A stretch of DNA of 58,299 nt from Candidatus Omnitrophota bacterium (lineage in GTDB: Bacteria; Hinthialibacterota; Hinthialibacteria; Hinthialibacterales; JAKPRU01), in the NCBI GenBank assembly GCA_029570205.1, contig JAKQSI010000076.1, positions 1 to 58,299 on the forward strand. The letters are read 5' to 3'. Under the pieces are notes generated by a model. It saw nothing but the letters and a program-made list of their open reading frames with translations. It was not told where the DNA came from and did no database searches. The translations under genes were made by a program, and so were the position numbers. Of this stretch, positions 4,046-55,029 are shown piece by piece (the stretch's first letter is position 1; every line of letters begins with the position of its first letter).

Positions 4046-4150
4046 CGGATTCTCTCCTGGCCTGAATCATCATACGATTCATATCATAATACATATAGAA
4101 TCTCTTGACAAGTCTTCCATAGTTCGATTAAGGTCACATTTATTCATCAT

Positions 4151-4179
4151 TTTAATGTCGCCACTTTTCGCAGTATAAT
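4151..4179 (+). promoter_or_regulatory. Candidate promoter for the sialidase-like gene
   Basis: A perfect -10 box TATAAT is at 4174-4179, with a poor -35 (TTTAAT, 4151-4156) at 17-base spacing. Transcription would start near 4186, giving a leader of about 36 bases to the GTG at 4222. An imperfect inverted pair GAATC (4064-4068) and GATTC (4076-4080) near the regulator's own start could be an operator. A TTGACA at 4105-4110 has no convincing -10 partner. Confidence 0.4.
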
Positions 4180-4221
4180 TTGCTCACAATTCCATCAATC
4201 CGACGAAGTGAGGAGCATAAA

Positions 4222-5415: not shown

Positions 5416-5508
5416 CGATCGTTTCGGAATGCTTCCGAGGCGGGCAGGCCGAACATACAAATCTCCGTAAATCCAAACGAGTGTCAGAAAGCTATGGAAC
5501 TTGTGCGA

Positions 5509-5837
5509 GTGTCCCGTCCCGGAAATATGTTCACAAAGTCTCTTGATTCTCTCAAGGATGGAATCGGCCGTCGCGGTCCACGCGAACGGATAACTTTTTG
5601 AATTGCCGGTCTGCACAGAACGATCGATTTTCTCGACGAGCGGGTTCACGCTCCGACACCCAACGGCAAGAGAGGCTGCGTCTTCTCCAAGGCTTGGATT
5701 TGGCTCTTCTCGTCTACGCATAACACCAGGGCGTTGTCGGGAGGATTCAGGTACAGTCCCACAATGTCGCGGACCTTTTCGACAAATAACGGATCGGTGG
5801 ACAAGTTGAAACAATTGACTCGGTGCGGATGCTTATT
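5509..5837 (-). pseudogene. IS630-family transposase remnant, internally deleted
   Basis: On the minus strand the first part reads like the middle of an IS630 transposase (K-H-P-H-R-V, then V-G-L-Y-L-N-P-P, then V-L-C-V-D-E-K-S-Q-I-Q-A-L, the first catalytic Asp region). It reaches L-P-L-G-V-G-A and a stop at 5646-5648. Immediately after, in another frame, comes the extreme C-terminus of the same family: L-V-E-K-I-D-R-S, then P-F-A-W-T-A-T-A-D-S-I-L, then R-I-K-R-L-C-E-H-I-S-G-T-G-H. The section carrying the second Asp and the Glu of the DDE triad is missing, and no N-terminus is seen. It fills most of the 436-base gap between the sialidase-like gene and the efflux permease. Confidence 0.75.
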
Positions 5838-35900: not shown

Positions 35901-38337
35901 GAAACAAAATACCGCCTTCGTCGAATGCGCGGATAATTGCATCCGTACAGGCGGGGCAATATTTCTCCTCCATTTCATACAGGTGATACAGATAGGGGCT
36001 GGTTACAAGGGGAAAATCAATCTGGTTAATATAAACGTTTTCCAGTTGGGCCGGAATGCTGATCTCCTCCGTTTCCCGCGCGTCGCGTTCGTATGTGTCA
36101 TCACTGATGAAAACGTTTCGTGCGCGCCAGGGACCGACTTCAGGATTCTGTTCAACAAGCAGAACCTTTTCAATCACATTAGCGAGTTCCGGTGTCGATC
36201 TCACGGAAATCCGGCTCAGCAGCATTTCGGGAAGCGTGTCGTCCTGGCCGCCGTAGATCAGCGCATACCACACATCCGAGGCATAGTGTTCCGGCGTATT
36301 CTCCGGTACATAAGTGGGGAGAAGATCTGCAATTCCGGTCTGGTAATTGTCGCGATGATCCCACGAGCAATCTCCGATCAGTACGACATACTGGGGCAGA
36401 GGCGGGGTCCATGCGCAGAGCGTGTAACCCAGGAAATCCTTGATCGACCTGCAGCTCGGTTGCCCGAAACTCCATTCATCATAGATATCTTGAACATCCA
36501 CTACCTGTACCCGATACCCTTGCCGGTTTCGCCATTCCAGCCATGAGTCCAGAACGGGATCGATAAACATTGCATGGCTGATGACTAACACGTCGGCGGA
36601 GTTGTCCGGTGCATGAAGAGTTGTAGCGTTATCCCGCACCACGGATTCCGGAACAGGCAGGTCCCGAGGATCAAATAGGTGAAACTCCATGCCCCCGGTT
36701 GCCGTCGCTATAAAAGAAACCAGGTTCTCCCTGTGTTCCGCTGTCCCGGTCCAGTCGATGAAGTTCCCATTAGGGGTTTCGGCAAGAAGCATGGGCTGCA
36801 CGGTCTCTGTGCAGTCGGCCACCGGCAATCGCATCGGAACACCTGTCGCCGGTGACACAAAACTGAATGCTCCATAACGCAACGTCAGGTCTCGTTGATA
36901 TTGGATTTGATAGGCGGCCAGAAACACCCGGCGGATATCATCGGTCTTTGTGTGAAGCGGAGTTGACGGCTCCTGATTCGGAGTGGCCTGGGGCAGGAAT
37001 ATTCCCACGGTGGTAGACGAAATCGCATCCGATGCGGCAATTACCAATCCAAAAATATCCTCCCGATCCGGCTGAATTGTTTCTACGGATTCGGAGCCCC
37101 CGGCTTTCAAAGTAACGGTTTGCGGAACCCGTTCGCGATTGAACAGGCGAACGCTGAAGTGGACGGGGGAATCGGCGGACCGACCGGGTGCGTGGAGTGG
37201 AACCTCATATTCCTGTCCCAAGGCGGCCCAGAACCACTCATAGTCCTGATGAGTTTTTCGACCCAGCTGATGGTCTTCTTCGAAATAGAGCGTATCGGTA
37301 ACCGATCGAACGAGGATCGCATCTCCGGTTCCTTCCAATACACCGGGGGAAGCGGCTAATTGAGGGAGATCGGTGTCGCCCCACACCAGCCAAAACACAG
37401 TATCCCTTGTGTAAGGGGAATCGGTTCGCCGCGCTCGAAAGACAATACGGGTGTCAGGCCCGAAACGATTATCTTTCGCATTTGTCGTGAGAAACGCGCA
37501 GGACTTACCCTGTGACCACAACGACAGCGTCGACAGGTCAATCGCGGCCGGTGAAAGACCGACTTTTTCGATGTCTTTCATCCCGACTGCATAAAGGCCA
37601 TCTCCACGGGTAAGGAGCTTAACCGCGTTTTCGCGTCGGACTCGTTCGCCAAGTCCGGCCTGGGGAATCCCGATGCTCCCGGACCAACCGGCTTCCAACG
37701 GGGGGGGTACATTGTCGGGTCGTGTCCGATAAAGATTGACCGATTCATGATTCAGTAGAAGATGCCGGTAGAGGGAAGGAAATCCGCCTGGAAATGACTG
37801 CTCACTTTGCGGTGGAAGAAGACTTCGCGCGGAGTTGACAAAACGGATGGTCAACTCTAATTCACGGATGAAAATCCGCTTCCCGGCATACTGGGTATTC
37901 GATACACGAGCAAGAAAGTTGGGATTTATGACTACCTTAACGACCCGGACTTCATGGAAAAAAAACTCTGTCCGTCCTGTTGTTTCTCCGGCCTGGTTCA
38001 GGATATCCTGGATTTGTTTGAGATTCTCATCCGAGGCGCTCTGGGAGTCCCCCGCGATAACTGTGCGATCACCCTGGGCCGGCCCGATTTCTACACACCA
38101 TCGGTCATAAGTAAACTCCCTCTCACCGGAGAACGGAACCGCCAGATAAACCTCTTCGGGCGGGTAGTCACTGTCCGGCCGGGGCCACTCAAAAAGCAGT
38201 CGGATCCGCTCTGCGGAAGATTCCAGTAGTCGGCAGTATTCCGGTTCGGAGAAAGCGGTGGTTCGGAATGGGTTTTGTCCGATTGCAACGGAACTCAAGA
38301 AAGGCAGGACTATCGTTGCGCACAAACCACGAAGCAT
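32956..38337 (-). CDS. Very large C25-family (gingipain-like) peptidase with CARDB repeats
   Basis: About 1,793 residues from the ATG at 38337, where the signal peptide M-L-R-G-L-C-A-T-I begins; the open frame extends 29 codons upstream into argC, and a TTG at 38349 is another option. The catalytic dyad of family C25 is visible: His817 in Y-F-G-H-G-G-N and Cys856 in N-W-S-C-L-T-G. After it come several CARDB-like beta-sandwich repeats (ending D-N-R-A-A-T-E and N-N-E-D-Q-V-H) to about residue 1500, then C-terminal beta domains. It is exported and probably acts at the cell surface. No T9SS C-terminal sorting domain was recognised. Confidence 0.82.
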   Translation of the reverse strand: MLRGLCATIVLPFLSSVAIGQNPFRTTAFSEPEYCRLLESSAERIRLLFEWPRPDSDYPPEEVYLAVPFSGEREFTYDRWCVEIGPAQGDRTVIAGDSQSASDENLKQIQDILNQAGETTGRTEFFFHEVRVVKVVINPNFLARVSNTQYAGKRIFIRELELTIRFVNSARSLLPPQSEQSFPGGFPSLYRHLLLNHESVNLYRTRPDNVPPPLEAGWSGSIGIPQAGLGERVRRENAVKLLTRGDGLYAVGMKDIEKVGLSPAAIDLSTLSLWSQGKSCAFLTTNAKDNRFGPDTRIVFRARRTDSPYTRDTVFWLVWGDTDLPQLAASPGVLEGTGDAILVRSVTDTLYFEEDHQLGRKTHQDYEWFWAALGQEYEVPLHAPGRSADSPVHFSVRLFNRERVPQTVTLKAGGSESVETIQPDREDIFGLVIAASDAISSTTVGIFLPQATPNQEPSTPLHTKTDDIRRVFLAAYQIQYQRDLTLRYGAFSFVSPATGVPMRLPVADCTETVQPMLLAETPNGNFIDWTGTAEHRENLVSFIATATGGMEFHLFDPRDLPVPESVVRDNATTLHAPDNSADVLVISHAMFIDPVLDSWLEWRNRQGYRVQVVDVQDIYDEWSFGQPSCRSIKDFLGYTLCAWTPPLPQYVVLIGDCSWDHRDNYQTGIADLLPTYVPENTPEHYASDVWYALIYGGQDDTLPEMLLSRISVRSTPELANVIEKVLLVEQNPEVGPWRARNVFISDDTYERDARETEEISIPAQLENVYINQIDFPLVTSPYLYHLYEMEEKYCPACTDAIIRAFDEGGILFQYFGHGGNQMWSHERIFMGTDRKLSEVLLLQEHGRLPLLVNWSCLTGYVNFNFPPFHVCLSEELVRQPRKGAIAVWSPSDMGSTEQHQIMAHYLSRNIFTEHRTIVGDAIEAARLDYSLVSKVNELLRQYISFGDPLTRLSLPTYETSLEFIPERVRHGETVSLTVRGKGPSEFTGTGTLAVTMAPGRELATARDISVVSGEFSHAVTFTVPEEGERLKVRFYAQSQDGTTDFWGGRTLETALPNLALEQLSITPKNAAQGTARSVRWVVTNRSPIDSPATECRVWAGPLIEIVQVPALPSGTTKELLWMGTLSHTAMLEVFVDPTGQVRESNKEDNRAATEWVIDSTPAVFPITRDINLVPSFPSEGTETKISIPFAARTESATASVAARLVGLPSGTEQITFVIDRDQRLRQVWTWPNVPAGDHRLPLVAAIDDLPQATVAVIPVLVSEKPDLAFTPGTLQYEPAHPILGQSIFLTTRLYNIGHAPAYNVQIAAYDGPKDDNNTIKRFQNKTYISPEPISTIGAGDGVDIRLRWDMPGFAGLGAHDVTIVADPKGAIPEIDETNNEDQVHLTIHDLPHLTVDPWDGVQYLIPPGEAQWGQAIPIRAEGYNRGESPAERVRMSLLFNGEEYSYIFPRVEPGARFETATALPSRSGKNVLEVQLDRYDLIAEKGETDKGIGDNLSKPHYLYLDMVMPQAAVENNRLLYHVQDETEYSAGVHEYTGWVPDRGIGIKGDLDEHNIELRPTYVSDMSPVSTVRVPKNWWWQKEHDCFTTPAEGNRDLEFSVPAPNGRYDVFIEMFSSGWVNQATAVFSVRCKNDAEFHSVECLYSGEGYCFQPLGSYHIVEDRFSFILRPVTGSAPVSFYKVKFKRPSDGGPVAAGYSSALFPAGPFERKRVQLSWDAEIPEGTDLGVRARWCDRDEQGGLRHMPWMRFVPGAQGNLNIAGKGDYVQFYGLFARHRHDSATSTIRSVTIEIEPE

Positions 38338-38389
38338 AAAACGACACAAGACGGTTATCCTCGCTTCCCTACGAGATAATGGAACCTGC

Positions 38390-39433
38390 TTACAAACGCG
38401 CAGGCCAGATTCCTGTACGCTCATCCAACCCTGCCAGAAGATTCATGTTCTGAACAGCCTGCGAAGAGGCTCCTTTGCCGGTGTTGTCCAGGGCCGCCAG
38501 GATCACCCATTTACCGGTACGCGGATCTTCGTGTACCGAGATATCGCAAAAATTGGTGAGTTGGACAGAATGCAATACCGGGGCCTCTCCCAGCGGCAAC
38601 ACGCGGACAAACGGCTCACCGGCATACGTGTCGGCATAGAGGCGGTGGAGATCATCGAGTGAATAATTCCCCGATTTCTCGCCGAACAGGGTGGCCAGTA
38701 TCCCCCGCCGAATGGGCAGGAGATGCGGCACAAAAGTCAGTCGGACCGTTCGCCCGGAAACTCGGTTTAAAATATCCTCCATCTCCGGAGTGTGACGGTG
38801 ATTCGCGATCTTGTAGGCCTTGAAGTTTTCCGCTACTTCCGGGTAGTGAAAGGCCAGGGACGGGTGTTTCCCCGCGCCGGTTACGCCGGATGCGCAGGAG
38901 GCGATCATCCCGTCCGGCTCGATTGCCCCGGCTTTCACAGCCGGATACAGGCCGAGAATCACTGTCGTTGAGTAGCAGCCCGGATTCGCCACCAGCTGCG
39001 CCCGTGGGATCTCCGCGCGAAACAGTTCCGGCAAACCGTATACCGCTTTTGCACACCATTCCGGAGAGGTATGCCTGCCCCCGTACCATTCGTCATGAAG
39101 CGCCGGATCTTTGAAACGGTAATCTCCGGCGAAATCAATGACTTGAATACCCTTTCCCAGATACGCCGGGGCCAGTTTCATAGCCACCTTGTCCGGGGTC
39201 GCCAGAAATGCAATGTCAATTCCATCGGGGATCGGCCCACCGGCGGGTTGGATTTGGACAGGGCAAAGCCCACGCAACTCGGTCCAGACGGCTCCGACAT
39301 CGGTCGGTTTGTCGACATCCGCGGCTGTCAGGGAAACAATCTCTGTGTTCGGGTGTTGCAGGAGAATCCGCAGGAGATCTCCCCCTGCGTATCCTGTCGC
39401 TCCTATAATTTGAATTCGAATTGGATTGGACAT
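38390..39433 (-). CDS. argC: N-acetyl-gamma-glutamyl-phosphate reductase
   Basis: 347 residues from the ATG at 39433, where the Rossmann motif I-I-G-A-T-G-Y-A-G starts; the longer frame upstream is not conserved-looking. Catalytic Cys is in V-A-N-P-G-C-Y-S-T and H in K-H-P-S-L-A-F-H-Y. It reduces N-acetylglutamyl phosphate in arginine synthesis. No other arg gene is in the window, so it is an isolated copy. It is followed by the C25 gene after about 52 bases. Confidence 0.95.
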   Translation of the reverse strand: MSNPIRIQIIGATGYAGGDLLRILLQHPNTEIVSLTAADVDKPTDVGAVWTELRGLCPVQIQPAGGPIPDGIDIAFLATPDKVAMKLAPAYLGKGIQVIDFAGDYRFKDPALHDEWYGGRHTSPEWCAKAVYGLPELFRAEIPRAQLVANPGCYSTTVILGLYPAVKAGAIEPDGMIASCASGVTGAGKHPSLAFHYPEVAENFKAYKIANHRHTPEMEDILNRVSGRTVRLTFVPHLLPIRRGILATLFGEKSGNYSLDDLHRLYADTYAGEPFVRVLPLGEAPVLHSVQLTNFCDISVHEDPRTGKWVILAALDNTGKGASSQAVQNMNLLAGLDERTGIWPARL

Positions 39434-41345: not shown

Positions 41346-44300
41346 TTAAGCTTGCCGGAGATTCGCCTTCAGATACTCCTCACCGGCAATTGCAAAACTG
41401 CGCAATACAATCCGGTCACTGCCCCCAATGACTTCCCAGTTGATCTCACGATCCTCACGTTTGGCCTTCAGTCGCTCGTTCTCTTCCTCGCGCAAGGTAT
41501 AACGATCCCATAATCCGACACCGACATTCGGCTCAAGGTGAATAAATTTCCAATCGACTATCTCCCCCTCAAATCGGCCCTGTTCATCCTGCAAAATTAC
41601 CTTCGAACCGATTCTCTTCCCGTTTTCATCGTACTCCGGCTCAATATCTACCAGCCGTCCCCTTCGCTGGAAAACCGGCGTGGCCAGGTAATCCAGCATC
41701 AGGTACGGCGGCCACCCGTAAGAAACACCGCGCAGATCCTCGCCGACCTCCCGTCCACGCTCCTCCCGGTATGTTTTGGCGTACTTCTTAGCAAAACGCG
41801 CCATGGCCTCCATTACCTTCGGCGCTTGCTCTTCGAGTTTCGGGCGCAACTGACCGCGAAACCGCTCCTGAACCAGCTCATCCCGCAGCGGCTCCAGTGT
41901 GCCGCCGCGCCCGACATTAGTCGCCACCTGAAGGCTCATCAGGATAATGGCAAATGCGGTCTGATACGGCTCCTCCGGTTCCGAGGAGCAAACGACTATT
42001 CGCAGCGAGCAGTAAATCTGCGAGCGCGGGCAGGTGTCCCGATTTACCGGCATGTTCCATTCGAGGATCTGTCGATCCACAAACGAACGCATCAGATCGT
42101 CGCTCGCCCAGAACTCCGGCGAGGTGAGTACGGCCGCCTGAATGACTACATTCTGAGACCGCGAGACATCATAGACAAACTCGGCTGCCTGGCGGACCGT
42201 CGCCGCATCGACCCGCCCATGAGCGTCCTGCATTTCAAATACTTTCAGATTCCGAGCGCCGGATTCCGCCGCGCCTTTAATCAATACAATCGGATGTTCC
42301 TCCGCGAACTTGCGAAGCCCGATATAGCCGTCACCGGAAATCCCGTTTTCAATTCGAGCGAGGATGTCCTTCGCTGAAAGCCCTTCGTTGTAAGCCCTTT
42401 TCCAATCCATTTCCGGTGGAAGATCCACACCGCTCTTTCGGTCGTAAATCTCCGGATAAAGAGACTTGTCGTAAGTAATATCTGAAAAAATCAGCGATTG
42501 AACGGTCGCCGGAAACCCGGCATCCTCCAGTTCGCCGGATTCATAGATCGAGAGACCGTGATAGGGGATAACCGATCCCACCGTTACAGGACGGGTAAAT
42601 CGAACGGCGAGACGAATCCCCTTCGGCTGAAGCCGCCCCGATTTCTCCTCCGCCTCGAGTACCGATTTAATCTCCTCATCGGACAGCCCGCGATGCCGCC
42701 GAAGCGCCTCCGCAAATTCGTCGCGGGTGACATACAGATGCGCGCCGTCGACTACAAGGCTCGGCTTTCTAGTCCCCTGATTCGTTACAAATCGCCCGAA
42801 CCGAGTAATCAAGACATTCGCGCCGCACCTCCCCGCCTCGAGCAAATCGCGATTCAGTGTCGGCCCCTCCCGTAACGCACGCGAAACATGCGTCCGCCCT
42901 ACCGGAAACAGGAACGCGAGATTCACCCGCTCATCCGCGGCAATGATATCCGGATCGAATTTCTCAAAAACGACAGGGATCGGAAATCCATCGCTGCGCA
43001 TGAAACAGATTTCGCGCAGTTGATTGTAGGCGCGCCACCGGCGTTCTGTCGCTGTCGGTGCATCGGCCCCGATGCCCGGCAACTCGTTTGTTCCTGCGAA
43101 ATCTCCAAGCAAATGATTCCGTTCGGAGGCCGGGCAATCGGCTAATTCGGTTCGATAGATCAACAGGTTACGGATGTACTCATACAGCCGGCGATGATGT
43201 TTCACCGCCAATTCGTACCGCTCTTCAGGCGTAAGACAAAGGAATCCCGAACCGCGCGAATACGCCCAGGGCCAGTATTCGCACCGGTGATCGTTCACCG
43301 TCTCCGCGAAGAAATCGGTCAGATTTTTCCAGAATACCCTCTGGTCGTATTCGCCGCGCGCCTGATAGACAAATTCCAATGTCTGAGCCAGCGCAAATGT
43401 TACATAAAAATACTCGATGCCCTCGGCGATCATGGCTAATTTCCCCTTATCGCCTTCCGCGGCCTCCGCCACACGCGCCAAATCACCGATGTTTTCGTAT
43501 CCGCCCGCGATTTTCTTCCAGTCTTCCAGGACGATTTCCCGGCCCGAGAACACCACTCCGAGGTCCTCCGAAATGCGTTCTCGGAGTACACGATTCTCCG
43601 CAGGAACGACGGCATCCGCCAGCGCCACGAGGGCGTTACGGGTATGGGCGATTAACATTCCAAACTCGTGATTAAGGTGAGACAACCATTCAAGCGAACG
43701 GTCTCCCGCTTCCCCTCTGAGGGCCTTCTCCAGGTCGATCCCCATCCGATCCATTACCTGACGGGCCTTCTGCGAATACGAACCGAACGGCTCTTGTTGT
43801 GCGGAATCGAATGCGGATTGAAATCCTTTCTCGCGATTAGAGAACGCCTGAGCGCGCATCGCCCGCTGCTGGAGTGCGCGACGACGTTCCAGGGCTTCCG
43901 CCGCCGCTACCTCTACCGCCTTGCTGGAGGATTCAACTAACTGCTGCTGCTTGAACTGCTGCGTTTCGGGAACGTATTTGTAGCGAACCAGCGCTTTCAT
44001 CAGCCGATCCATTTCACGCGGTGTGAACGGTTCTTGAGGTGTCGAGCGCGGCCCGTCGAATACAATCGCCGGTCGGCGCTCCCGCCGCCGAATCCCTTCT
44101 ACGCCCTTTTCAAAGATCGTCCGCATTTCACAAACCCGCGCTTCCGGCTCGCCGGTCACCACAAAGATTCCGCCGATTCCCGCTATCCAGGTTCCGAAAT
44201 CCAGATGCGATAACGGAAGCCCGGCAGACAATTTTGCCGACGCCTGGCTGATAAACGCATCACCTTCACGCCAGGTTCCGTATCGCTTCAGGCGTTCCTC

Positions 44301-47300
44301 TTCTCGAAGCGCTTTACCGGCTTCATCCTCTTCCTGAATATGGTGGAGCAGCCTGCCGTAAAAGTCCTTCGCCTCTTGAATTGCCCGGTCTCGAACCGTG
44401 TTGTCTTTTGCGATCGCAACGGCTTCAATTCGACGGTACAGATTCAAAGCGCGTTCGCGTTTCCGGTGCATTTCATCGCGTAGACGTTCCACATTGGATG
44501 ATCCCAGCCCGATGGCCCGATAAGTCCCGCGCCGTCCGAATTTCTCGCACGCCGCAAAGAACGTCATAATGTCGCGATAAGTCAGAGCGCGACGTTTTTT
44601 GCCTGCGGCGCCGTCCGCAATCGCCAGCGAACTGTTCGGGTTCCCGTTCAGCATCAGGGCTACCAACTTCGGCGCATCGTCAATCAGGTCCAATAGTTCC
44701 CGGAACGGGATACCCGTATTCAGCACGTCAATGCCCTGGACATCTCTCTCGTAGTCCCGGCCCGGTCCCCGGTATTTGAGTACCAATGCGTGAATGTTGC
44801 CGGCGATATCGGCCATCAGTCGATTCCGCTGCTCTTCGGGAAGGTCCTTTATTCCGGCCCACTCCGCGAGTTTCCCGCCATAGACCTTCGCGTTCGCCGT
44901 AATCTGTTCTTCGCTCAACCCGACGTCGGCCAGTTTTGTCTTCACCGCTTCCGCTACCGCGTCCAGTTTTGTGTCCGCCGTGTAGTGCAGCACATCCTGG
45001 GTAGAGGACATGGTAATCGAGGTCATGACAATATCGGCAGGAGGTAGATGACGCGGGAAAGATTTCTTCAGCCTCTCCACGGTCGCGGGGTCGGTCAGTT
45101 TCAGATCGAAAGATGCCGCCAGTTGTTCGCGCAACCGACGCGCAACCGGATGGTGGTCCTCCGGATCAAAACCGTGCGCCATCAGGTAAACGAGGTTCTG
45201 TCCTTCCTCATCGAGACTGAATGTCAGATGCTCTCCGGTTTGAGCAAAAATCTCAAATAGCCGAAGCCCCGTCGAGTACCGGACGTCCTGAACAGGCTTA
45301 TATTCGGCAGTCAGCGCAATGCGCGCGTGCTCTTCGGTCGGGCAACGGGATTCATGCTCCCGCGCTTCCCGGATGCATTGGTAAATCATCCAGGCCTTAT
45401 AGAACACCATAAACCGGTTAACCTGCTCGGCGCAGATAATCATCTTTTCCACGCCCCACCGCGCCGCAAGATTGGCTATCAAAGTCGCCCCGTCCGCAAC
45501 CTCCGGCCACGGTCGCCCCAGCCGCACAATCGCCTTGGCGATCTTCGTGATCTGCATCACCAGGAGGCCGTCGCGTACCTCGAAAAACTCCTTCAGCGAA
45601 TCGACCGACAAAAGTTTTTCCGCCGCCCAGACCTGCCAATCCAACTCGGATTCAAAGTCGTTCTTGTGTATCAGGGCCTTTTTGGCAAGCGCCATCACGC
45701 CGGCCCGATGGTGATCCGGTATTCCGATCTGGCGCAGCTTTACCTCATTCGTTAACGAAAGCACAAAGGCCAGAAACAGGCCGTCTTTCGGCACGCAGTA
45801 GCCGCCATAGCCTTCCCCGGCGGGAAGCACCAGGCGGTCCTCGCGCAGGTTCATCTGATCGGCCATGTCCTCTTCATCGCCTTCTGTCACGGCCATAATC
45901 AGCAGCGCCAGCGCGTTGGACCCGGCGAAATGTGTAACGCAAAGCGCATTCTCGGAGGTTTTCTGTATCTCCGCATGAGCCAGGGCCGGACGTTCTTCCA
46001 CACCGCCCTCATTGACAAGGCTATAAAATTCAAATCCGGCGCGCGCCGCCGTGGCGTCCGCTCCGCCGACCCACTGCCGCCATTTCACTACCGAATCCCG
46101 CTCCCGTTCGCCCAGGTTTACACGGCTGGGTGTGTAAAGCAGGTTGTACCGTTTATTGCCCCCCACCGCCTGGTAATGGTACTTCGGATTCAGTACCAGA
46201 TGCCGCAAATCCCGTTCGGCTAATGTCTCTTTGCGGGCCGTCGACAATCCGAGACTCGTATGCCGTCGCAGATACGTCGTCACCTTTCCGGGAATACCGC
46301 GCGCCGGATTCGCCTCATGCAGCGCGTTCAATACACGCCGGCGCGCCTCAAATCGAACCAGGTTCTCCAGTTCCTCGGCATAGTCCCGGTCACTGTCGAT
46401 TACCGATCGCTGCGCCGTGTTCAAGTCGATCCCGGGATTTTCTTTCAGGAAGGCATTGACACGGTCCAGGATCAGCTGCCCGTTGTTTTCGATTACCTTG
46501 GGAACACAGCTTGTTTCCAACTCGGTCCGATGCGCTTCGATCACCCGTTCCACGGACGGAGGATCGACGATCACCTCCGCGTCCGGATTTCCTTCGGGGT
46601 CCTCTTCCAGCAGCACGGCTAATTTTGCGACCTCATTAGCTACCGGAAGAAAAGACATCACCACAGTCCCCGTGGCGCGTTCCCGGTCGATACGCTGATC
46701 CGCCATCACCTCGTCGATCACGACATCCATCGCAAACTCATGGATGACTTTCTTGCCGATCCGCGTAATCTGATTGCGATACCGGCTAAGACGATTCCGG
46801 ACTTCCTGTTCCAAACCCTCGCCCTTGACGGCGTTGTACAGCGCCATTTCCTCCTCAATCCAGGATTGCACATATCCCTCGGTCATTCCGGCAGATTCGG
46901 TAGTCAAAATATGGAGCGAGGGCAGCGGCCGAAGCCGTTCCATCCCCCGTGCGCCGAGCCGATCCGCTTCGCGCTGCAGATCGGGGTCTTTACCGACCAG
47001 GGCCTTGCAGCGTTTGTACAGGGATTCCGCATCCTTCGCGGAGGCATAAGCCGCGCCGATGCCGGAGGATTTTCCTGCTGTTTCCACCAATGCCGGGACA
47101 AGTACATCACGGCGAAGGCGCCCTGATTTCTCGACCGTTCGGTTAATATCTAAAATAGCCTTCCGCGCGGAATCGGCCACCACCGCCGCCACCGGCCCGA
47201 TATAACCGTTCAGGTCTTTCGCGGATTTCAGAACCCTCCGAATCGCTTCCGCCCGGCCCAGGGAAGGATCTTCGGCAAGCCACCGCTCCGCTTTAGCCAG

Positions 47301-49316
47301 TAAAGGAGGTTCCTTTTCCAGTAAGAGTTGACGGGCGGCAGCAATATGCTCAGAATCCATTACCTCCTCGATGTTGCGCGCCCAGAACTCCGAATGAAGT
47401 CGGAAGAAGGCTTCCATCGCCTCCTGGTCGACTTCCGTTTCGATCACCTCTACAACCCGCTCTTCCCCGCCGACCTCCACGGCCTTGCGAATCACCCGCT
47501 CGTGAATAAACAGCGGGATGGCTTCCACCCAATCCTGTACTTTGATAATCCAATGGGAATCTTCCACATCCCCGTTCGCTAAAAGGATCTTGCCGGGACC
47601 CGGTGTGGCGTACGTGTTGTGCCCGCCACGACGGGGGAGATCTTTTAAATCTTCTTCTTTTCCGGGATGAACTTCGCGAAATGCGTTCGCATTCGCCAGG
47701 TTGATTGTTTCGGCGGGGTGTGTGCGCTGCAAAAGGACGACATACGCCGCATCCCGCGCGGGCGCTTGCGCCAGTCGTCCGCGAAGTTCGCCGATCAGAT
47801 TAAAAATCCGGCCGACATCCGCAAACAGGTTTTTGCGGTCCCGCTCCGTACGCTCTTCCACGCCACCGGTCAGTAGTCGGCGGGAGGCCTCCTCCCGCTC
47901 CCGCATAATGGCCTTGAGCTCGGAGGATTGATACTTAATCAACGCCTCTTCCAGCTGATCGATAGCCCCCACCGCCGCGGAATATGAAATCTCGCCGGGG
48001 CGGCCCATCAGGCTGACCAGTCGGGTGGCAAAGGTCTCCAAGTCGCGGATGATCCGGCAATGCAAGTACAACTCTTGCGCCGTTTCCAATAGCGCCTCCT
48101 TGCCGGTCACAAGTTTACTGACCGAAAGAAGGTGCGCCTGGTTGCCGAACGCGCGTGAGAGACGTCCACCCACCAGACGCACATGATTCTCCAGCGCCCA
48201 GTCCGCAATGCGGCGGATATTCAGCCCCTCCACCCGTGGGTCATACGTGCTGACCACCGCCTCATTGACCATTGCCCGCTGCAAATCGACATCCTCACCG
48301 GGTTGATCGAGAATCGCCAGAACCCGCTCATGGTCATAAGGCAAGTCAATCCGCGACTGGCCGATCAGCCAGGTCACCCACAAATCGCGCCATTTTAGTG
48401 TCCCCTCCAGCTCGCGCATCACACGCTCGCAAGCGTGCAGGAATTCCTGCGGATGATCCGGTCCCAGACCTTCGAGGGATTCGGCGGTCTCCCGGCCCTG
48501 TTCGCCTGTCCGGTTCAAAAGACTGATAGCTTTTTGAAAAGACTTCTTGGGAATAAAAACGGTGGATTCGGGAATGGAACGGGTCAATTCCAATAAATCG
48601 TTGCCCAAGTCGCGCAATTCCTTTGCGCCCAGATGCGCATATCGTTCGATGTGGACACCTTCCATTTGCCCCGCCAGTTCCGCGTTTAAAGCGTTTTGCA
48701 GGAAGATCTGAAAAACATGACCACGGTCCACCGATTCGGCGGATCGCAGGGTCCGCCGCAGGGCATCGCGACGTTCCTGGTCCAGCAAAAACCAGAAATC
48801 CAGAACGGTATGAATCGCATCCCGCTGGGAATCGCCGGCAAGAACTGAAAGACCGAACAGCAACACAACGGAACCAAGCAGCTCCGCGCCCAAAACCGCC
48901 TGTGAATCTCCTGCGAGCGATTCATCCTCTTCCGAAACGCATACCCCCAACTCCGCAAACACGTCCGCTGCGATTCGGAGAGAATCCTCCTCTTTCACCA
49001 CATCGGCAAGAACATCGTGGCCTTGACACCAGCGGATTCGAACAGAGGCGCTTCGGATCCCTTTGAGAATCCGAATCACTCTCGGTCCCATGGTGCGCGT
49101 CAGAATGCCTTGAGCGGCGGCATTCAGAACGGCCTTGGCCGTTCGCACCCCGTCCGGGTCCTTGCGGGACTCCGGCAACTGGAGCGAGGTGATTTTCTCG
49201 GACATTTTAATGCGGTCTGTGGCAATTTCCACACCCGCGTTGCGTCGCGCCACAGGAACACGTGTTTTCGGCGCGGTCCGATCCACGCAGTGTACAGGCA
49301 GACAGATACGATCCAT
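41346..49316 (-). CDS. Giant unassigned protein (about 2,656 aa) with ATP-grasp-like C-terminus
   Basis: Starts at ATG 49316 (AGGAG 12 bases upstream; in-frame TTG codons at 49322 and 49328 are alternatives). No signal peptide and no clear membrane spans, so cytosolic. Most of the protein is Arg/Glu/Leu-rich and helical, with no family I can name. Local landmarks: G-Y-G-G-Y-C-V-P-K-D at about 1170 and F-G-T-W-I-A-G-I-G-G at about 1710. The C-terminal 300 residues have an ATP-grasp order: I-V-L-I-K-G-A-A-E-S-G-A-R (about 2342), V-V-I-Q, then I-L-E-W-N-M-P, L-R-I-V-V and T-N-V-G-R-G-G (about 2465). The frame is unbroken for 8 kb with codon use like its neighbours, so it is a real gene. Confidence 0.75.
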   Translation of the reverse strand: MDRICLPVHCVDRTAPKTRVPVARRNAGVEIATDRIKMSEKITSLQLPESRKDPDGVRTAKAVLNAAAQGILTRTMGPRVIRILKGIRSASVRIRWCQGHDVLADVVKEEDSLRIAADVFAELGVCVSEEDESLAGDSQAVLGAELLGSVVLLFGLSVLAGDSQRDAIHTVLDFWFLLDQERRDALRRTLRSAESVDRGHVFQIFLQNALNAELAGQMEGVHIERYAHLGAKELRDLGNDLLELTRSIPESTVFIPKKSFQKAISLLNRTGEQGRETAESLEGLGPDHPQEFLHACERVMRELEGTLKWRDLWVTWLIGQSRIDLPYDHERVLAILDQPGEDVDLQRAMVNEAVVSTYDPRVEGLNIRRIADWALENHVRLVGGRLSRAFGNQAHLLSVSKLVTGKEALLETAQELYLHCRIIRDLETFATRLVSLMGRPGEISYSAAVGAIDQLEEALIKYQSSELKAIMREREEASRRLLTGGVEERTERDRKNLFADVGRIFNLIGELRGRLAQAPARDAAYVVLLQRTHPAETINLANANAFREVHPGKEEDLKDLPRRGGHNTYATPGPGKILLANGDVEDSHWIIKVQDWVEAIPLFIHERVIRKAVEVGGEERVVEVIETEVDQEAMEAFFRLHSEFWARNIEEVMDSEHIAAARQLLLEKEPPLLAKAERWLAEDPSLGRAEAIRRVLKSAKDLNGYIGPVAAVVADSARKAILDINRTVEKSGRLRRDVLVPALVETAGKSSGIGAAYASAKDAESLYKRCKALVGKDPDLQREADRLGARGMERLRPLPSLHILTTESAGMTEGYVQSWIEEEMALYNAVKGEGLEQEVRNRLSRYRNQITRIGKKVIHEFAMDVVIDEVMADQRIDRERATGTVVMSFLPVANEVAKLAVLLEEDPEGNPDAEVIVDPPSVERVIEAHRTELETSCVPKVIENNGQLILDRVNAFLKENPGIDLNTAQRSVIDSDRDYAEELENLVRFEARRRVLNALHEANPARGIPGKVTTYLRRHTSLGLSTARKETLAERDLRHLVLNPKYHYQAVGGNKRYNLLYTPSRVNLGERERDSVVKWRQWVGGADATAARAGFEFYSLVNEGGVEERPALAHAEIQKTSENALCVTHFAGSNALALLIMAVTEGDEEDMADQMNLREDRLVLPAGEGYGGYCVPKDGLFLAFVLSLTNEVKLRQIGIPDHHRAGVMALAKKALIHKNDFESELDWQVWAAEKLLSVDSLKEFFEVRDGLLVMQITKIAKAIVRLGRPWPEVADGATLIANLAARWGVEKMIICAEQVNRFMVFYKAWMIYQCIREAREHESRCPTEEHARIALTAEYKPVQDVRYSTGLRLFEIFAQTGEHLTFSLDEEGQNLVYLMAHGFDPEDHHPVARRLREQLAASFDLKLTDPATVERLKKSFPRHLPPADIVMTSITMSSTQDVLHYTADTKLDAVAEAVKTKLADVGLSEEQITANAKVYGGKLAEWAGIKDLPEEQRNRLMADIAGNIHALVLKYRGPGRDYERDVQGIDVLNTGIPFRELLDLIDDAPKLVALMLNGNPNSSLAIADGAAGKKRRALTYRDIMTFFAACEKFGRRGTYRAIGLGSSNVERLRDEMHRKRERALNLYRRIEAVAIAKDNTVRDRAIQEAKDFYGRLLHHIQEEDEAGKALREEERLKRYGTWREGDAFISQASAKLSAGLPLSHLDFGTWIAGIGGIFVVTGEPEARVCEMRTIFEKGVEGIRRRERRPAIVFDGPRSTPQEPFTPREMDRLMKALVRYKYVPETQQFKQQQLVESSSKAVEVAAAEALERRRALQQRAMRAQAFSNREKGFQSAFDSAQQEPFGSYSQKARQVMDRMGIDLEKALRGEAGDRSLEWLSHLNHEFGMLIAHTRNALVALADAVVPAENRVLRERISEDLGVVFSGREIVLEDWKKIAGGYENIGDLARVAEAAEGDKGKLAMIAEGIEYFYVTFALAQTLEFVYQARGEYDQRVFWKNLTDFFAETVNDHRCEYWPWAYSRGSGFLCLTPEERYELAVKHHRRLYEYIRNLLIYRTELADCPASERNHLLGDFAGTNELPGIGADAPTATERRWRAYNQLREICFMRSDGFPIPVVFEKFDPDIIAADERVNLAFLFPVGRTHVSRALREGPTLNRDLLEAGRCGANVLITRFGRFVTNQGTRKPSLVVDGAHLYVTRDEFAEALRRHRGLSDEEIKSVLEAEEKSGRLQPKGIRLAVRFTRPVTVGSVIPYHGLSIYESGELEDAGFPATVQSLIFSDITYDKSLYPEIYDRKSGVDLPPEMDWKRAYNEGLSAKDILARIENGISGDGYIGLRKFAEEHPIVLIKGAAESGARNLKVFEMQDAHGRVDAATVRQAAEFVYDVSRSQNVVIQAAVLTSPEFWASDDLMRSFVDRQILEWNMPVNRDTCPRSQIYCSLRIVVCSSEPEEPYQTAFAIILMSLQVATNVGRGGTLEPLRDELVQERFRGQLRPKLEEQAPKVMEAMARFAKKYAKTYREERGREVGEDLRGVSYGWPPYLMLDYLATPVFQRRGRLVDIEPEYDENGKRIGSKVILQDEQGRFEGEIVDWKFIHLEPNVGVGLWDRYTLREEENERLKAKREDREINWEVIGGSDRIVLRSFAIAGEEYLKANLRQA

Positions 49317-49548
49317 GGTCAAATCCAACTCCTGGATGGGATTTCAAAGTCAGCCGACAGCAGAAATCGCGGTCGACAAATCATGCCATTTTTTTCCCTT
49401 GGTAGAAACTACCCTGACGATGGGGTTGAGGCAAGATTGCATACCTTGTCGAGATGGAAGCTGCGTCGGAACATCAAATCGCGGCCCGGGAATTTCTTTG
49501 GGAAAAAGCACGCTTCGTCAAGGAGGCGGCCTTTCCTCAGGTTTTGCA

Positions 49549-50691: not shown

Positions 50692-50763
50692 TCCAGGCCA
50701 TTTCCGGGTGGCGCCGGCATCCGGCCGGTGAAATATGGCAAGAAATTCCCATTGCACTATACA

Positions 50764-52314
50764 ATGAACAATCCGCGAAACACTATTTTGGAGGCTTACA
50801 CCGACACAGCGGAATCCATCGGAAGAAAACCGTCCTGTCCCCTGTCCAATTCGGACCTCTCTCTTGTACTCAAATACGTCCTGCTGCGATGTGTAAAACA
50901 GGAAATCCCCGACATTCACCCGGGTATCGCCGATGCCGGCTCCGGCCTGGGTTTCGAAAGACTCAATTTCTTCATCCGGAATATCTGGGACCAAGACCTG
51001 GAAGACCTGCTGCGCATTCTCAAACAGGATCATGCCGTCGAGTTTTCACCGGAAGACTTGGAGCAAATCCACTCGGAAAGATATCGCCGACGAATGACCT
51101 TCCTCGTTTGGGAACAGTTGCTCGGGCAGCGTTCCGCGCCGGAATTACGGGTCTGTCCGAGTATCCTTCCCGCTACGAAGTATCGCCGCGTCGTCGGTGA
51201 AAAACCTGTTGTCCTCATCGTTTTCGAGGCATTCCCCAATATTATGAATGAATGCTTCCCGCTGTGTGTGGATGCCTGTGTCTATAACCTGGAAACATTC
51301 GGGGAACCGCGATGGCAAGTGTGCGCCTCCCATATCGCCTGGCTGGATGAGCAGTGCAGACCCACACGCGCCGCATTCTACGATCCCGCCGGGTACGCGC
51401 TCATCGAGACCGACTGCAACCCGCCGCTGTCGGTTTGCGCGATTCTTGTTCTGTGCGCCTCTCCCACTGCCCATTGCGAGGTGTCCGAGGCAGCCACCCG
51501 GCGCGGGATTCTCCAACTCAATCCCTATCGCCACGCAGCCGAAACAGCCGACAGTAAGATCGCCTGTTACGATCTGTGGAAACACGCCGCTGTTCCCACT
51601 CCCAGAACAGTCCTCATCCCGGCACAGAGTTCACCGGCAATAATTCAGTCCATTTTAAGAGAGTTCCGAGAAAACTCCCGGAAACACTCTCTCCTCTGCT
51701 CCGTCCAACCTGATTCGGGAACCGAGGGCCGCAGCGTAAATAACCTGATTCTTGAACCCGAGCGGGATTCGGATGCGATCTCCATGGTTCGGCAGATTCT
51801 CACGGAAGATGACGCCATTGTGCGTGAATGGGTGGGCAATGTCCGTTTTTATGCGGCTGGAGAGACAACGGGGCGTGTTTGTGATTTGCGGCTCAATGTC
51901 AGTTTCGACGGCCAACGACACCGCGCAGAAAGCGGTTACTTGCAGGTCGCAGGCGATGAGCAATCCATGGTGTCTTCCGCATCACGGGGCGGGATAATCC
52001 GGAAATTCAGCCGGGGAGCGATGGAAAACCTGTACGGCCCCGAAGGTCGCAAGGTCGTCTGGGATGCGGATAGGCAGACTCGAATCTGCGCAATTGCCGA
52101 GTCCGCCGCCAAAGCCTTCCCGGACCTGGCTCTTGTGGGGGTGGACTTGAAATTGGAAATATCGACAAGCGAAAAACTGGATGCACAAGTGCTGGACGCG
52201 AATCCCCGCCCTGCCGGATTAACTCATTCTGAATTCATCCCCCAACCGGGGAAAAAGCCCGAACCGGGAGTAACCCGTCACCTGTGGCGACTTGTATCAA
52301 ATCCCGGAGTTTGA
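50764..52314 (+). CDS. ATP-grasp-like ligase of unknown substrate
   Basis: 516 residues from ATG 50764; a GTG 12 codons upstream is inside the repeat. Residues about 1-240 are not recognised. From about 263 it follows ATP-grasp order: S-K-I-A-C-Y-D-L-W-K, V-P-T-P-R-T-V, V-Q-P-D-S-G-T-E-G-R-S, I-V-R-E-W-V-G (about 351), V-C-D-L-R-L-N-V (about 372), S-R-G-G, and the metal-binding end G-V-D-L-K-L-E and V-L-D-A-N-P-R-P (about 459-483). RimK or D-Ala-D-Ala-ligase-like enzymes join an acyl phosphate to an amine. Substrate is unknown. The 3' end overlaps the convergent HtrA-like gene by 18 bases. Confidence 0.75.
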   Translation: MNNPRNTILEAYTDTAESIGRKPSCPLSNSDLSLVLKYVLLRCVKQEIPDIHPGIADAGSGLGFERLNFFIRNIWDQDLEDLLRILKQDHAVEFSPEDLEQIHSERYRRRMTFLVWEQLLGQRSAPELRVCPSILPATKYRRVVGEKPVVLIVFEAFPNIMNECFPLCVDACVYNLETFGEPRWQVCASHIAWLDEQCRPTRAAFYDPAGYALIETDCNPPLSVCAILVLCASPTAHCEVSEAATRRGILQLNPYRHAAETADSKIACYDLWKHAAVPTPRTVLIPAQSSPAIIQSILREFRENSRKHSLLCSVQPDSGTEGRSVNNLILEPERDSDAISMVRQILTEDDAIVREWVGNVRFYAAGETTGRVCDLRLNVSFDGQRHRAESGYLQVAGDEQSMVSSASRGGIIRKFSRGAMENLYGPEGRKVVWDADRQTRICAIAESAAKAFPDLALVGVDLKLEISTSEKLDAQVLDANPRPAGLTHSEFIPQPGKKPEPGVTRHLWRLVSNPGV

Positions 52315-53460
52315 AACCGTATTATCCATGCTGATGACGATCTGACGGGCTTCCTGCTGCCGACGCACACGAATCTGAACATGCTGGTTCGGTCGAGTCT
52401 TAAGAACCTGGTAAAACAAATGAATGCCGCTGTTGATCGGAACCTCATTGAATGATTCGATAATATCGCCGACCTCGATTCCGGCCCGTTCCGCCGCCCC
52501 GCCTTTCTCCACACCGGTGACCTTCAGTGTCTGCCAGTCAAACTCCAACCCCAAACCGCCCCGCTCCCGTTTCCCATACAGTACCAAGTCCGTGGCCACA
52601 TCGGCAACCATCCAATCGGGAACGGCGAACGCGACACCGGGATACGGGGCCAGGCGATAGTCCAGCGCCAGAAGACCCAGCAGATTCCCCTGCAAATCGA
52701 AAATCGGCGCTCCCTCGCTGTCATGATAAACCGGCATGAGGGCCTGGAAATACTCCTCGTGATAGGCCCGCAACACATTCAGTTGATATCCGTACCCATT
52801 GAATCCGCTGTTCCCGATGGTCCCCGGTATCGGGGTCATTTGTTTGGGAGTGTAACAATGTTGAATGGAGAAAATCGGAGTGCCCGCAGGCGGCAACTCC
52901 ACTGCCGGTGTAATAGAGATCACCCGGTCAAACCGCGCCCCGAATGCTTTAACCAGCGCGATATTCGTGATCGTATCCACCGCAGTCACCGTCGCATCGT
53001 ACACGGTTTGATTCGCGTCGTAGACCTCCAGGCCCATCACGCTGGTCGAGCAGAGAATGGAGGCGTTACTGGAGACAATCAATCCGTCTCGATCCACTAC
53101 AATACCGATGCTGTTGTAAACCGGATTGCCCTCCTGCCCCCGCCGCCCTACCATTTCAAGGAAACTATTGTGAACTGCGTTAAACCGCTCATACCAGCTC
53201 TGCCAGAAGTCAATCACACGAATCGGCTGAAACTGTTGCTGGGAGAGGGAGTCACTAAAACTCTTGAGGAACTGGACCAGTTCGGCCGTATCCTGCCCCA
53301 GTTTCTGTTCGTCCGCGCCAGGAACCAGTTTGGCCGTGATCCGCACAGCCCCCCCTCGCACATCCTGATACACCTGAGAATAATCCACCGGCGCACCCTG
53401 GGTCTGTGCCGTTGGGGTAAGAGTAAAAATCACCGTCGCTGCGATCAACACACGAACCAT
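52297..53460 (-). CDS. HtrA/DegP-like PDZ protein with a degenerate catalytic triad
   Basis: About 387 residues from ATG 53460 (GGAGAGG nine bases upstream; ATG 53478 has none). Signal peptide to about residue 22. The trypsin-like region aligns to HtrA: I-V-V-D-R-D-G-L-I-V at 120-129, but the expected T-N-x-H-V is S-S-N-A-S-I, so no His; the expected T-D-L-A is T-N-I-A (N166), so no Asp; S248 is kept in H-D-S-E-G-A-P where GNSGGP is normal. A PDZ domain follows (about 300-385: G-V-E-K-G-G-A-A-E-R-A-G). It is probably a chaperone or sensor. Lies downstream of a sigma/anti-sigma pair. Confidence 0.8.
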   Translation of the reverse strand: MVRVLIAATVIFTLTPTAQTQGAPVDYSQVYQDVRGGAVRITAKLVPGADEQKLGQDTAELVQFLKSFSDSLSQQQFQPIRVIDFWQSWYERFNAVHNSFLEMVGRRGQEGNPVYNSIGIVVDRDGLIVSSNASILCSTSVMGLEVYDANQTVYDATVTAVDTITNIALVKAFGARFDRVISITPAVELPPAGTPIFSIQHCYTPKQMTPIPGTIGNSGFNGYGYQLNVLRAYHEEYFQALMPVYHDSEGAPIFDLQGNLLGLLALDYRLAPYPGVAFAVPDWMVADVATDLVLYGKRERGGLGLEFDWQTLKVTGVEKGGAAERAGIEVGDIIESFNEVPINSGIHLFYQVLKTRPNQHVQIRVRRQQEARQIVISMDNTVSNSGI

Positions 53461-53502
53461 CTGCCAGGTCCTCTCCATGGATCTGCGGACTATCCGATAA
53501 CT

Positions 53503-53580
53503 GTCATTCCGTCATAAACCCGAATCCCCCTCAACGTCATTCCGGCCTCTATTCGTCATTCCGGCGAAAGCCGGAATCCA
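53503..53580. repeat. REP-like cluster, three degenerate units
   Basis: GTCATTCC is at 53503-53510, GTCATTCCGGC at 53536-53546, and a full palindrome TTCCGGC (53559-53565) with GCCGGAA (53570-53576) around GAAA. It lies in the 146-base gap between the HtrA-like gene and the anti-sigma gene. Confidence 0.75.
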
Positions 53581-53606
53581 AGTCTTATGCGTTGTCAATC
53601 GAAGAA

Positions 53607-54293
53607 TCACAATCGACCCGATAGGGAGGCCATCGCGATATCCGTCTGCGGGCGGAAAACGGGGAGTGGCAGAGAAGGATTATTCAGCTGAGAACGAAAG
53701 TCCTCGTAGTTCCCTTTCGTTCTGATCCCGGTGAAATTCTGGAGTGTACGGATTCTTTCGGCGCTCTGGTTGATTTGCTCAAGTTCTTTTGCAATATCCA
53801 CTTCTTCTTTTACCCTTACCACCGGTCCCTGTGTCGGTTCCAACGCCGGTGTCGGTTCGAGCGCCGCTGTCGGTTTCAAAACGGCAAGAGTCTCAAGCGG
53901 TTGCATCATCGGAGGAGCCGTGAGTGTATCCATGTCCCACCAAGCCAGAATGGCTGCCAAAACCCCAACCACAGCGGCCACCGGAATGGGCCGCAAAACA
54001 CCCCAACCCCAACCGAACGATATCACATCCCACCATCTGGAAGACTTCCGGGCTGTCCCAAACCGCTCCTCCAGACCCGCACGCAGGACCTCCGGCTGAT
54101 AAGGAATCTCCGCTTCGTCAACCTCCCATTCCTCCAAAAGGCTCCAGGCCTGTTCGAATTCGTACAGATTCCGACGACAATCCCGGCAGATCCGCACATG
54201 CCGCTCCACACGCATCCGCTCCTCGACATCGCAGTCGCAGGATACATACCTCGACAAAAGATCTTGATCGAATCGGCAAGGATGTTCGTCCAT
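53607..54293 (-). CDS. Zinc-finger anti-sigma factor
   Basis: A 228-residue membrane protein. The ZAS motif H-x3-C-x2-C is visible as R-H-V-R-I-C-R-D-C (H32, C36, C39), binding the sigma factor. A hydrophobic segment at about 101-119 (P-V-A-A-V-V-G-V-L-A-A-I-L-A) is the membrane span. The periplasmic part has a Pro/Thr-rich linker (T-A-A-L-E-P-T-P-A-L-E-P-T), then a charged helix. The start lies one base beyond the stop of the sigma gene. It would release the sigma factor on regulated proteolysis. Confidence 0.87.
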   Translation of the reverse strand: MDEHPCRFDQDLLSRYVSCDCDVEERMRVERHVRICRDCRRNLYEFEQAWSLLEEWEVDEAEIPYQPEVLRAGLEERFGTARKSSRWWDVISFGWGWGVLRPIPVAAVVGVLAAILAWWDMDTLTAPPMMQPLETLAVLKPTAALEPTPALEPTQGPVVRVKEEVDIAKELEQINQSAERIRTLQNFTGIRTKGNYEDFRSQLNNPSLPLPVFRPQTDIAMASLSGRL

Positions 54294-54294
54294 G

Positions 54295-55029
54295 TTATTG
54301 ATATTCCTCCATCAACGGACGGAGAATTTGTCTCAGTTTCAAATGCGCCCGGTACGCGCGTTGTTTGATCGATTCCGGGGTGACGTTCAATATCTCGGCA
54401 ATCTCGATATATGACAACCCTTGATACTTATTCAAAATAATCACTTCCCTCTGGTCCGGCGAGAGAGAGTTGATGGCGCGCATAATGATGTCCTGATGCA
54501 CTCTCTCTGCATATTCCTCACGCGCATCCGGCCCTTTCTCCATCGTCGCGTCAATCACCGACATGGTATCCCCCGATGAATTGGTGGGCGCATCGGTGTC
54601 CCGTTGCACCAGTCGATTCCAATATCGACGCTTTTCGTCAATGCAGAGATTGCGGGCAATCCGGTACATCCAGGAGGTAAACTTCGATTTCGGCTCCCAG
54701 CGTTCCCGGCTGCCATACACCCGCATAAACGTTTCCTGTACCAGGTCTTCCGCCAATTGCCGATCCTGCACAATACGCAGGATAAACGAGAAAACCGGCC
54801 TGTAATGACGCTTATAGAGTTCTTCAAGCGCCTCCTGTTTTCCCACCCGACAGGCCATCATCAATTCTTCATCGGAAAGACCCTGCAAGTTCCGCAACGT
54901 CAGCGGCATGGATGCAAGCCTGCCGCCGCTCTCCCCGGCGTTTTTCTCCAGAGCTCGCTCCATGGTCTGCGTGCTCGCCCATAGGTTCGATCCGGCAGTC
55001 GCTGTCATACTTACTGATTGTCTGCTCAC
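54295..55029 (-). CDS. ECF-type RNA polymerase sigma factor
   Basis: A protein of up to 244 residues; start uncertain (GTG 55029 or ATG 55008). Region 2 (L-Y-K-R-H-Y, E-D-L-V-Q-E-T-F, W-M-Y-R-I-A-R-N) and region 4 (L-S-P-D-Q-R-E-V-I, L-S-Y-I-E-I-A-E-I-L, S-I-K-Q-R) are typical of the group. The N-terminal 40-50 residues are extra and low-complexity. It forms an operon with the anti-sigma factor (one-base gap) and the HtrA-like gene. A TATAAT on the minus strand lies at 55282-55287, about 250 bases upstream, with no good -35. Confidence 0.88.
   Translation of the reverse strand: MSRQSVSMTATAGSNLWASTQTMERALEKNAGESGGRLASMPLTLRNLQGLSDEELMMACRVGKQEALEELYKRHYRPVFSFILRIVQDRQLAEDLVQETFMRVYGSRERWEPKSKFTSWMYRIARNLCIDEKRRYWNRLVQRDTDAPTNSSGDTMSVIDATMEKGPDAREEYAERVHQDIIMRAINSLSPDQREVIILNKYQGLSYIEIAEILNVTPESIKQRAYRAHLKLRQILRPLMEEYQ

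Follow-up and report, generated by a model that had tools for sequence, protein, structure and literature searches.

A giant protein from a Candidatus Omnitrophota bacterium combines a diverged UDP-glucose-dehydrogenase-type region with an ATP-grasp domain and is paired with a second ATP-grasp-like protein

Introduction

What kind of protein is encoded by a bacterial reading frame of ~8 kb that matches none of the families usually behind genes of this length? The window analyzed here, a stretch of 58,299 nt from a Candidatus Omnitrophota bacterium, carries such a frame on its minus strand (41346-49328, without interruption). The initial annotation, made from the letters alone, described a single leftward frame of about 2,656 codons lacking PKS/NRPS, helicase and repeat motifs, and proposed that the last 300 residues follow the ATP-grasp order while the preceding 2,000+ residues form a new scaffold or several unknown domains. 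A literature search found no description of this giant family or its pathway.

Results

The giant gene and its relatives

The frame is genuine and not a chance opening: two same-genus genomes preserve it at 89-97% identity, and genomes from the order's other genera at 51-53%. The starts of the orthologues (MSR/MGR/MTQ...) coincide with the residue of the in-frame ATG at 49316, from which the protein has the annotated length of 2656 aa, and an AGGAG sequence lies upstream at 49333-49329. Residue numbers below count from the TTG at 49328; the features are collected in Table 1. PKS/NRPS, helicase and repeat families gave no match on the giant, and these identities were rejected, as the annotation had it. 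A role in anti-phage defense was likewise rejected, the giant, its partner and the associated kinase (see below) all being without a PADLOC match. The claim that the protein has no membrane spans is less certain: the N-terminal region is otherwise soluble, but residues ~145-163 are hydrophobic (19-residue Kyte-Doolittle mean of 2.2), and this segment may be a buried helix rather than a membrane span. Pfam gave no convincing family for residues 1611-2131. Structure models were made for residues 340-1539 and 1461-2660.

Table 1. Features of the giant gene and of its partner in the window.
Feature	Position	Strand	Remarks
Giant gene	41346..49316	-	2656 aa from ATG; 2660 aa from TTG at 49328
N-terminal region, residues 1-381	48186..49328	-	Weak conservation, 0.40-0.53
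UDP-glucose-dehydrogenase-type region, residues 382-1610	44499..48185	-	Large insertions; end near 1610 read from motifs
NAD-type Rossmann domain (predicted), residues 382-1124	45957..48185	-	Model aligned to UGDH 3-277; insertions of ~300 and ~230 residues
Catalytic core without insertions, residues 1057-1209	45702..46160	-	PF00984, 3g79 profile match, hhalign, invariant residues
Putative C-terminal nucleotide-sugar-binding domain, residues 1295-1610	44499..45446	-	YKPxxDxRxS invariant; DG, GLG further on
Linker, residues 1611-2131	42936..44498	-	Predicted secondary structure mostly helical
ATP-grasp ligase domain with insertions, residues 2132-2651	41376..42935	-	Re-aligned model and invariant residues
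Partner, second ATP-grasp-like protein	50728..52314	+	528 aa; 516 aa from internal ATG at 50764

The giant is present in 10 of the 14 genomes of its phylum at 50-97% identity, namely in every genome of the order and in one from another family of the class; some copies end at contig edges. Distant giants at ~30% identity occur in Latescibacterota, Bathyarchaeota, Zipacnadia, Elusimicrobia and UBP4, as found by a scan of the genome collection with two short peptide patterns, which will miss diverged members. The giant of Bathyarchaeota B26-2 lies in two overlapping frames of 1874 and 686 aa (L028 9710-9729), a split due to a frameshift or an assembly error. A shorter paralogue of ~2,480 aa is found in the same genome as the giant (L009 7390-14838) and in its two same-genus relatives, and clusters with archaeal and other short forms of the giant. 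At the same locus, a frame of many near-identical repeats (AARQGRLAYWV / GSCQAGTPGLL; 1033-2037) is probably an intergenic tandem repeat array.

Two other gene sets in the window may be recorded here. An 1822-aa protein (32956-38424, minus strand) carries a peptidase C25 domain (232 bits) and CARDB repeats and is related to models of PorU, the type IX secretion sortase, with scores far under their cut-offs. The minus-strand group at 52297-55029 (an ECF sigma factor, an adjacent zinc-finger, anti-sigma-like protein and a PDZ/trypsin-like protease) is a typical envelope-stress set.

A UDP-glucose-dehydrogenase-type region opened by insertions

The Pfam model of the UDP-glucose/GDP-mannose dehydrogenase central domain (PF00984) matches residues 1118-1187 with 27.9 bits against a cut-off of 25.4, and 9 of 20 giant members match it at E <= 0.05. 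The NDP-GalNAcA dehydrogenase 3g79 was retrieved (E = 5e-8) by a profile built from 20 relatives, in an alignment that brings the AExxKxxxN and GGxCxxK motifs into register. Local hhalign comparison with ordinary UDP-glucose dehydrogenases (UGDHs) gave E = 5e-9 over residues 1057-1209 and E = 4e-3 at the YKPxxDxRxS motif, the latter over residues 1295-1362 only; in this C-terminal motif Y1343, K1344, D1348, R1350 and S1352 are invariant. Farther on, residues 1533-1610 may form the end of the UGDH C-terminal domain, judging by a strand and the DG and GLG motifs.

The fold of the preceding part was approached through the model of residues 340-1539 (mean pLDDT of 72.4; insertions mostly helical). 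Plain Foldseek returned nothing at E <= 0.001 for this model, and in both 1,200-residue models the folds appeared only on re-alignment. After re-alignment, model residues 43-785 match UGDH 3-277 from strand 1 onward, and the best 12 structural matches are all UGDHs (Z of 10.8-11.5, rmsd of 3.3-4.0 over 181-190 residues). The next match is mannitol-phosphate dehydrogenase (Z of 9.1); 6-phosphogluconate dehydrogenase stands lower, separated from it by one designed protein. Both dehydrogenases are related to UGDH. The Rossmann assignment rests on the model, because local hhalign on residues 330-820 gave no sequence-level Rossmann signal. The N-terminal Rossmann domain of UGDH is thus predicted to be present, stretched over ~740 residues.

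The spacing of the anchor motifs is near-constant across giant members: 426 residues from strand 1 to the catalytic Thr region, 257 from there to the P of the NPEFL motif, 56 from this P to the catalytic Lys, and 55 from Lys to Cys, with the C-terminal motifs following after another 166 and 228. Counted against the residue numbers of human UGDH, insertions of ~300, ~230, ~100 and ~130 residues surround an insertion-free catalytic core. Because these anchors spread across >1,200 residues and keep near-constant distances in all members, we rejected the idea of a contiguous UGDH simply fused to other parts. We concluded that a diverged protein of the UDP-glucose-dehydrogenase type makes up residues 382-~1610 and that insertions totalling ~750 residues, mostly helical, have opened it up; this assignment is well supported. 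The initial annotation was therefore largely wrong in taking everything before the C-terminal domain for new scaffold or unknown domains, since ~1,230 of these residues (382-1610) belong to this protein. No family was assigned to residues 1-381 or 1611-2131.

Kept and lost residues of the dehydrogenase active site

The equivalents of human UGDH K220, N224 and C276 are invariant in the giants (K1123 in 25/25, N1127 in 24/24 and C1178 in 24/24 sequences). Also invariant are T810 and, in 24-25 sequences with the archaeal ones included, R1165 and K1181; position 1182 is D or E. By motif, T810, R1165 and D1182 would correspond to UGDH Thr131, Arg260 and Asp280. In UGDH, Cys276 forms the thiohemiacetal and Lys220 stabilizes the transition state, Asp280 holds the catalytic water, Arg260 reaches the glucose of the partner subunit, Thr131 is a mobile active-site residue, and the E161Q mutant has been seen with bound thiohemiacetal (PMC3184952). 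The catalytic loop of the giant (~1107-1203) is poorly modeled, with a pLDDT near 30, and its assignment therefore comes from sequence.

Two features of UGDH are missing. The GxGxxG motif after strand 1 is absent, and residues 387-393 read (G/A/S...)GRxSRA in the 22 aligned members, barring single substitutions. Where UGDH has the NPEFL/PERV glutamate (human E161), 24/24 sequences have Ser, aligned opposite the E of PERV in 3g79. The loss of GxGxxG makes NAD binding in the usual mode doubtful, and since this motif and the E161 glutamate are absent in all members, we call the region UGDH-like in fold and active site and do not file it as a UGDH. The missing GxGxxG also leaves room for the main rival explanation, a non-oxidizing dehydrogenase part: the region would be a relic that binds a sugar nucleotide (or another nucleotide) and positions it for the ATP-grasp domains, and the giant would be a pure ligase acting on a sugar that is already acidic. 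Both losses speak for this explanation, as does a short subfamily of giants with low similarity to canonical dehydrogenases and no Pfam match. However, every member, bacterial or archaeal, has retained the nucleophilic Cys, the Lys, Asn and Arg, and the acidic residue that follows PK. Such retention is unexpected in a relic binding site, and we consider this explanation rather unlikely.

The C-terminal ATP-grasp domain

The model of residues 1461-2660 has a mean pLDDT of 74.9. Plain Foldseek gave no match at E < 0.001 for it, with D-Ala ligase and biotin carboxylases among the weaker matches. On VIA-align re-alignment all 50 listed matches are ATP-grasp proteins (Z of 8.0-10.3) covering residues 2132-2651, the top one being LysX/ArgX (5k2m; Z of 10.3, 5.6 A over 212 residues), followed by RimK, VanA, glutathione synthetase and Ddl. 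K2351 is invariant in 21/21 sequences, D2546 in 20/20, and E2599 and N2601 in 20/20; invariant among the members covering the region are also E2355-S-G-x-R2359, R2443 and N2471-V-G-x-G-G. Judged by motif position, K2351 would be the ATP-binding Lys, and D2546 together with the ExN motif would bind Mg. No Pfam ATP-grasp model scores above its cut-off on the giant and the C-terminal profile found no match at E <= 1 among PDB sequences; we do not take the sub-cut-off Pfam scores as evidence against the fold. Predicted fold and invariant residues together support well the assignment of residues 2132-2651 to an ATP-grasp domain of the carboxylate-amine-ligase type. Structure prediction has thus borne out the ATP-grasp reading of the C terminus, although the domain takes up ~520 residues instead of the 300 first proposed.

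The subfamily is not fixed by these matches, because less than 1 Z unit separates LysX/ArgX and RimK, at ranks 1-2, from VanA, Ddl and glutathione synthetase. The giant has NVGRGG at 2471-2476, which may correspond to the N-x-x-R-G-G segment of the RimK/LysX subfamily.

A second ATP-grasp-like protein is paired with the giant

The partner gene lies near the giant gene in the window (Table 1). Its product shows weak matches to ATP-grasp Pfam models over the C-terminal part, all below the curated cut-offs, and its profile gave chance matches only against PDB sequences; P-x-x-[GS]TEG, D461 and [DE]xN are invariant. The partner and the giant are found in the identical 13 of 290 genomes, the remaining giant-profile matches in this set being frames of ordinary UGDH length (~430-450 aa). 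Fisher's test gave 8e-23 without phylogenetic correction, a value that overstates independence because 10 of the 13 genomes share one phylum (3 are from elsewhere). Among the genomes reached via distant loci, 9 of 11 carry the partner, and the two without it are among the smaller assemblies. Genomes with two giants carry two partners, and the giant and partner trees mirror each other (Mantel r of 0.84, permutation p of 1e-4). The partner gene is directly downstream of the giant gene at loci from several phyla (L009, L022, L026, L027, L028, L032, L067, and L072). The pairing is well supported.

This constant co-occurrence bears on the idea that the giant is a large structural or scaffold protein in which all enzyme-like domains are inactive. 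Its size, helical content and weak profile scores would suit such a protein; yet the catalytic residues are invariant in both enzyme parts, and the companion that always goes with it has kept its own catalytic motif, so that we find this explanation barely credible.

In six genomes of the order (L042-L047) the partner gene is located away from the giant gene, beside a gene for a 336-aa GHMP kinase, and in 5 of the 6 also by hisH/hisF-like genes. The 336-aa kinase (A7) was considered as a third component and rejected, as giant-free genomes of the phylum carry it just as giant-bearing ones do.

A galactokinase-like kinase and other neighbors

A different, galactokinase-like GHMP kinase adjoins or lies near the giant or partner gene at L027, L028, L032, L060, L068, L072, and L073. 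It matches the GHMP family (PF00288) and has the galactose-binding signature, with scores of 132-166 bits against the NCBIfam TIGR00131 cut-off of 226.65. A strong copy (>440 bits) is present in 18 of 23 giant-bearing genomes vs. none of the 4 giant-free genomes tested; the genome studied here has one elsewhere (G000:C20), and five giant-bearing genomes (G003, G004, G008, G021, and G026) lack the kinase or show a weak match. The kinase is an associated, non-obligate component. Among the neighbors of giant loci, no gene for a nucleotidyltransferase, a glycosyltransferase or export recurs consistently, and no conserved small carrier protein is encoded beside the giant and partner genes at the loci examined.

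LysX acts on the protein LysW and RimK on S6, and the nearest ATP-grasp folds thus raise the possibility that a protein or peptide is what the giant and its partner act on, with the very large helical regions holding the macromolecule or a carrier protein and the sugar chemistry being secondary. But fold rank does not fix the substrate, the genes have no conserved small carrier protein beside them, and a small sugar molecule is what both the neighboring sugar kinase and the active site of the dehydrogenase part suggest. The dehydrogenase part and the kinase favor sugar metabolism over protein or polymer modification, and we hold such modification to be unlikely.

Two neighborhoods in the same genome carry further genes. 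At the paralogue locus L009, just downstream of the paralogue's ATP-grasp-like partner, a minus-strand gene (3829-5661) encodes a KamA-family radical SAM protein (lysine/glutamate 2,3-aminomutase-like) with an N-terminal extension; it is kept in the same-genus locus L011 and could be a source of beta-amino acid for the ligases. At L083 (G000:C2; 6447-11150, minus strand) a 1567-aa protein joins a GHMP kinase to an epimerase/dehydratase (GDP_Man_Dehyd, 206 bits) and to a C terminus with no family assignment; its gene lies near one for a sugar nucleotidyltransferase.

Discussion

The architecture of the giant and its pairing with the partner are well supported, while the chemistry is inferred. 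We propose, at about even chances, that the giant is a dehydrogenase-type/ATP-grasp fusion working with the partner and the kinase in a sugar-oxidation and amide-forming pathway. The kinase would yield a sugar-1-phosphate, which a separate enzyme would turn into a nucleotide sugar. Oxidation of C6 to the level of a thioester or an acid would fall to the dehydrogenase part, acting through C1178 together with K1123, N1127 and the D/E at position 1182. The ATP-grasp domain of the giant would convert the carboxylate with ATP to an acyl phosphate and join it to an amine or amino acid, and the partner would make the first amide or add a second unit, giving one or two amide bonds overall and a sugar-uronamide conjugate or a polymer precursor of it. 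With the steps fused in one chain, the oxidized intermediate would be kept from escaping.

A more specific version is suggested by the Ser found in every member in place of the E161 glutamate: the sugar thioester on C1178 might be handed within the chain to amide formation, with no release of free uronic acid. We think this improbable; if true, the giant would represent an integrated oxidase-ligase of a new kind, accompanied by a second ATP-grasp partner, and an undescribed sugar amide would be common to unrelated bacteria and archaea.

UGDH is a textbook enzyme fold of ~450 residues. In the giant family, which spans bacteria and archaea, this fold has been enlarged nearly threefold by insertions with the catalytic core retained. 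The giant, the ATP-grasp-like partner and the sugar kinase would constitute an unrecognized pathway in uncultured lineages, with testable chemistry.

Comparison with known systems

The neighbor kinase resembles galactokinase (TIGR00131) in its family and galactose-binding signature, but at ~470-575 aa it forms its own subfamily and scores under that cut-off. The partner resembles the YheC/D-like, sugar-transfer and ATP-grasp_3 families through its weak C-terminal matches and has the motif [DE]xNPRPAGL; it differs from them in staying under their cut-offs, in having an N-terminal half with no family assignment and in its constant pairing with the giant across the tested genomes. The ligase domain of the giant shares with LysX/ArgX and RimK (and also with Ddl/VanA and glutathione synthetase) the predicted fold, the invariant Lys, the ESG loop, the Asp and the ExN motif, whereas it lacks a Pfam match above cut-off, reaches ~520 residues with insertions and is part of a giant. 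The UDP-glucose/NDP-sugar 6-dehydrogenases (human UGDH, BceC, and 3g79) have in common with the giant the Rossmann fold from strand 1 (predicted in the giant), the central helical domain with AExxKxxxN and GGxCxPK, and the C-terminal YKPxxDxRxS. UGDH has GxGxxG and E161, whereas the giant is without the former and has Ser at the position of the latter; and where these enzymes comprise ~450 residues, the corresponding region of the giant extends over ~1,230 and is fused to a ligase.
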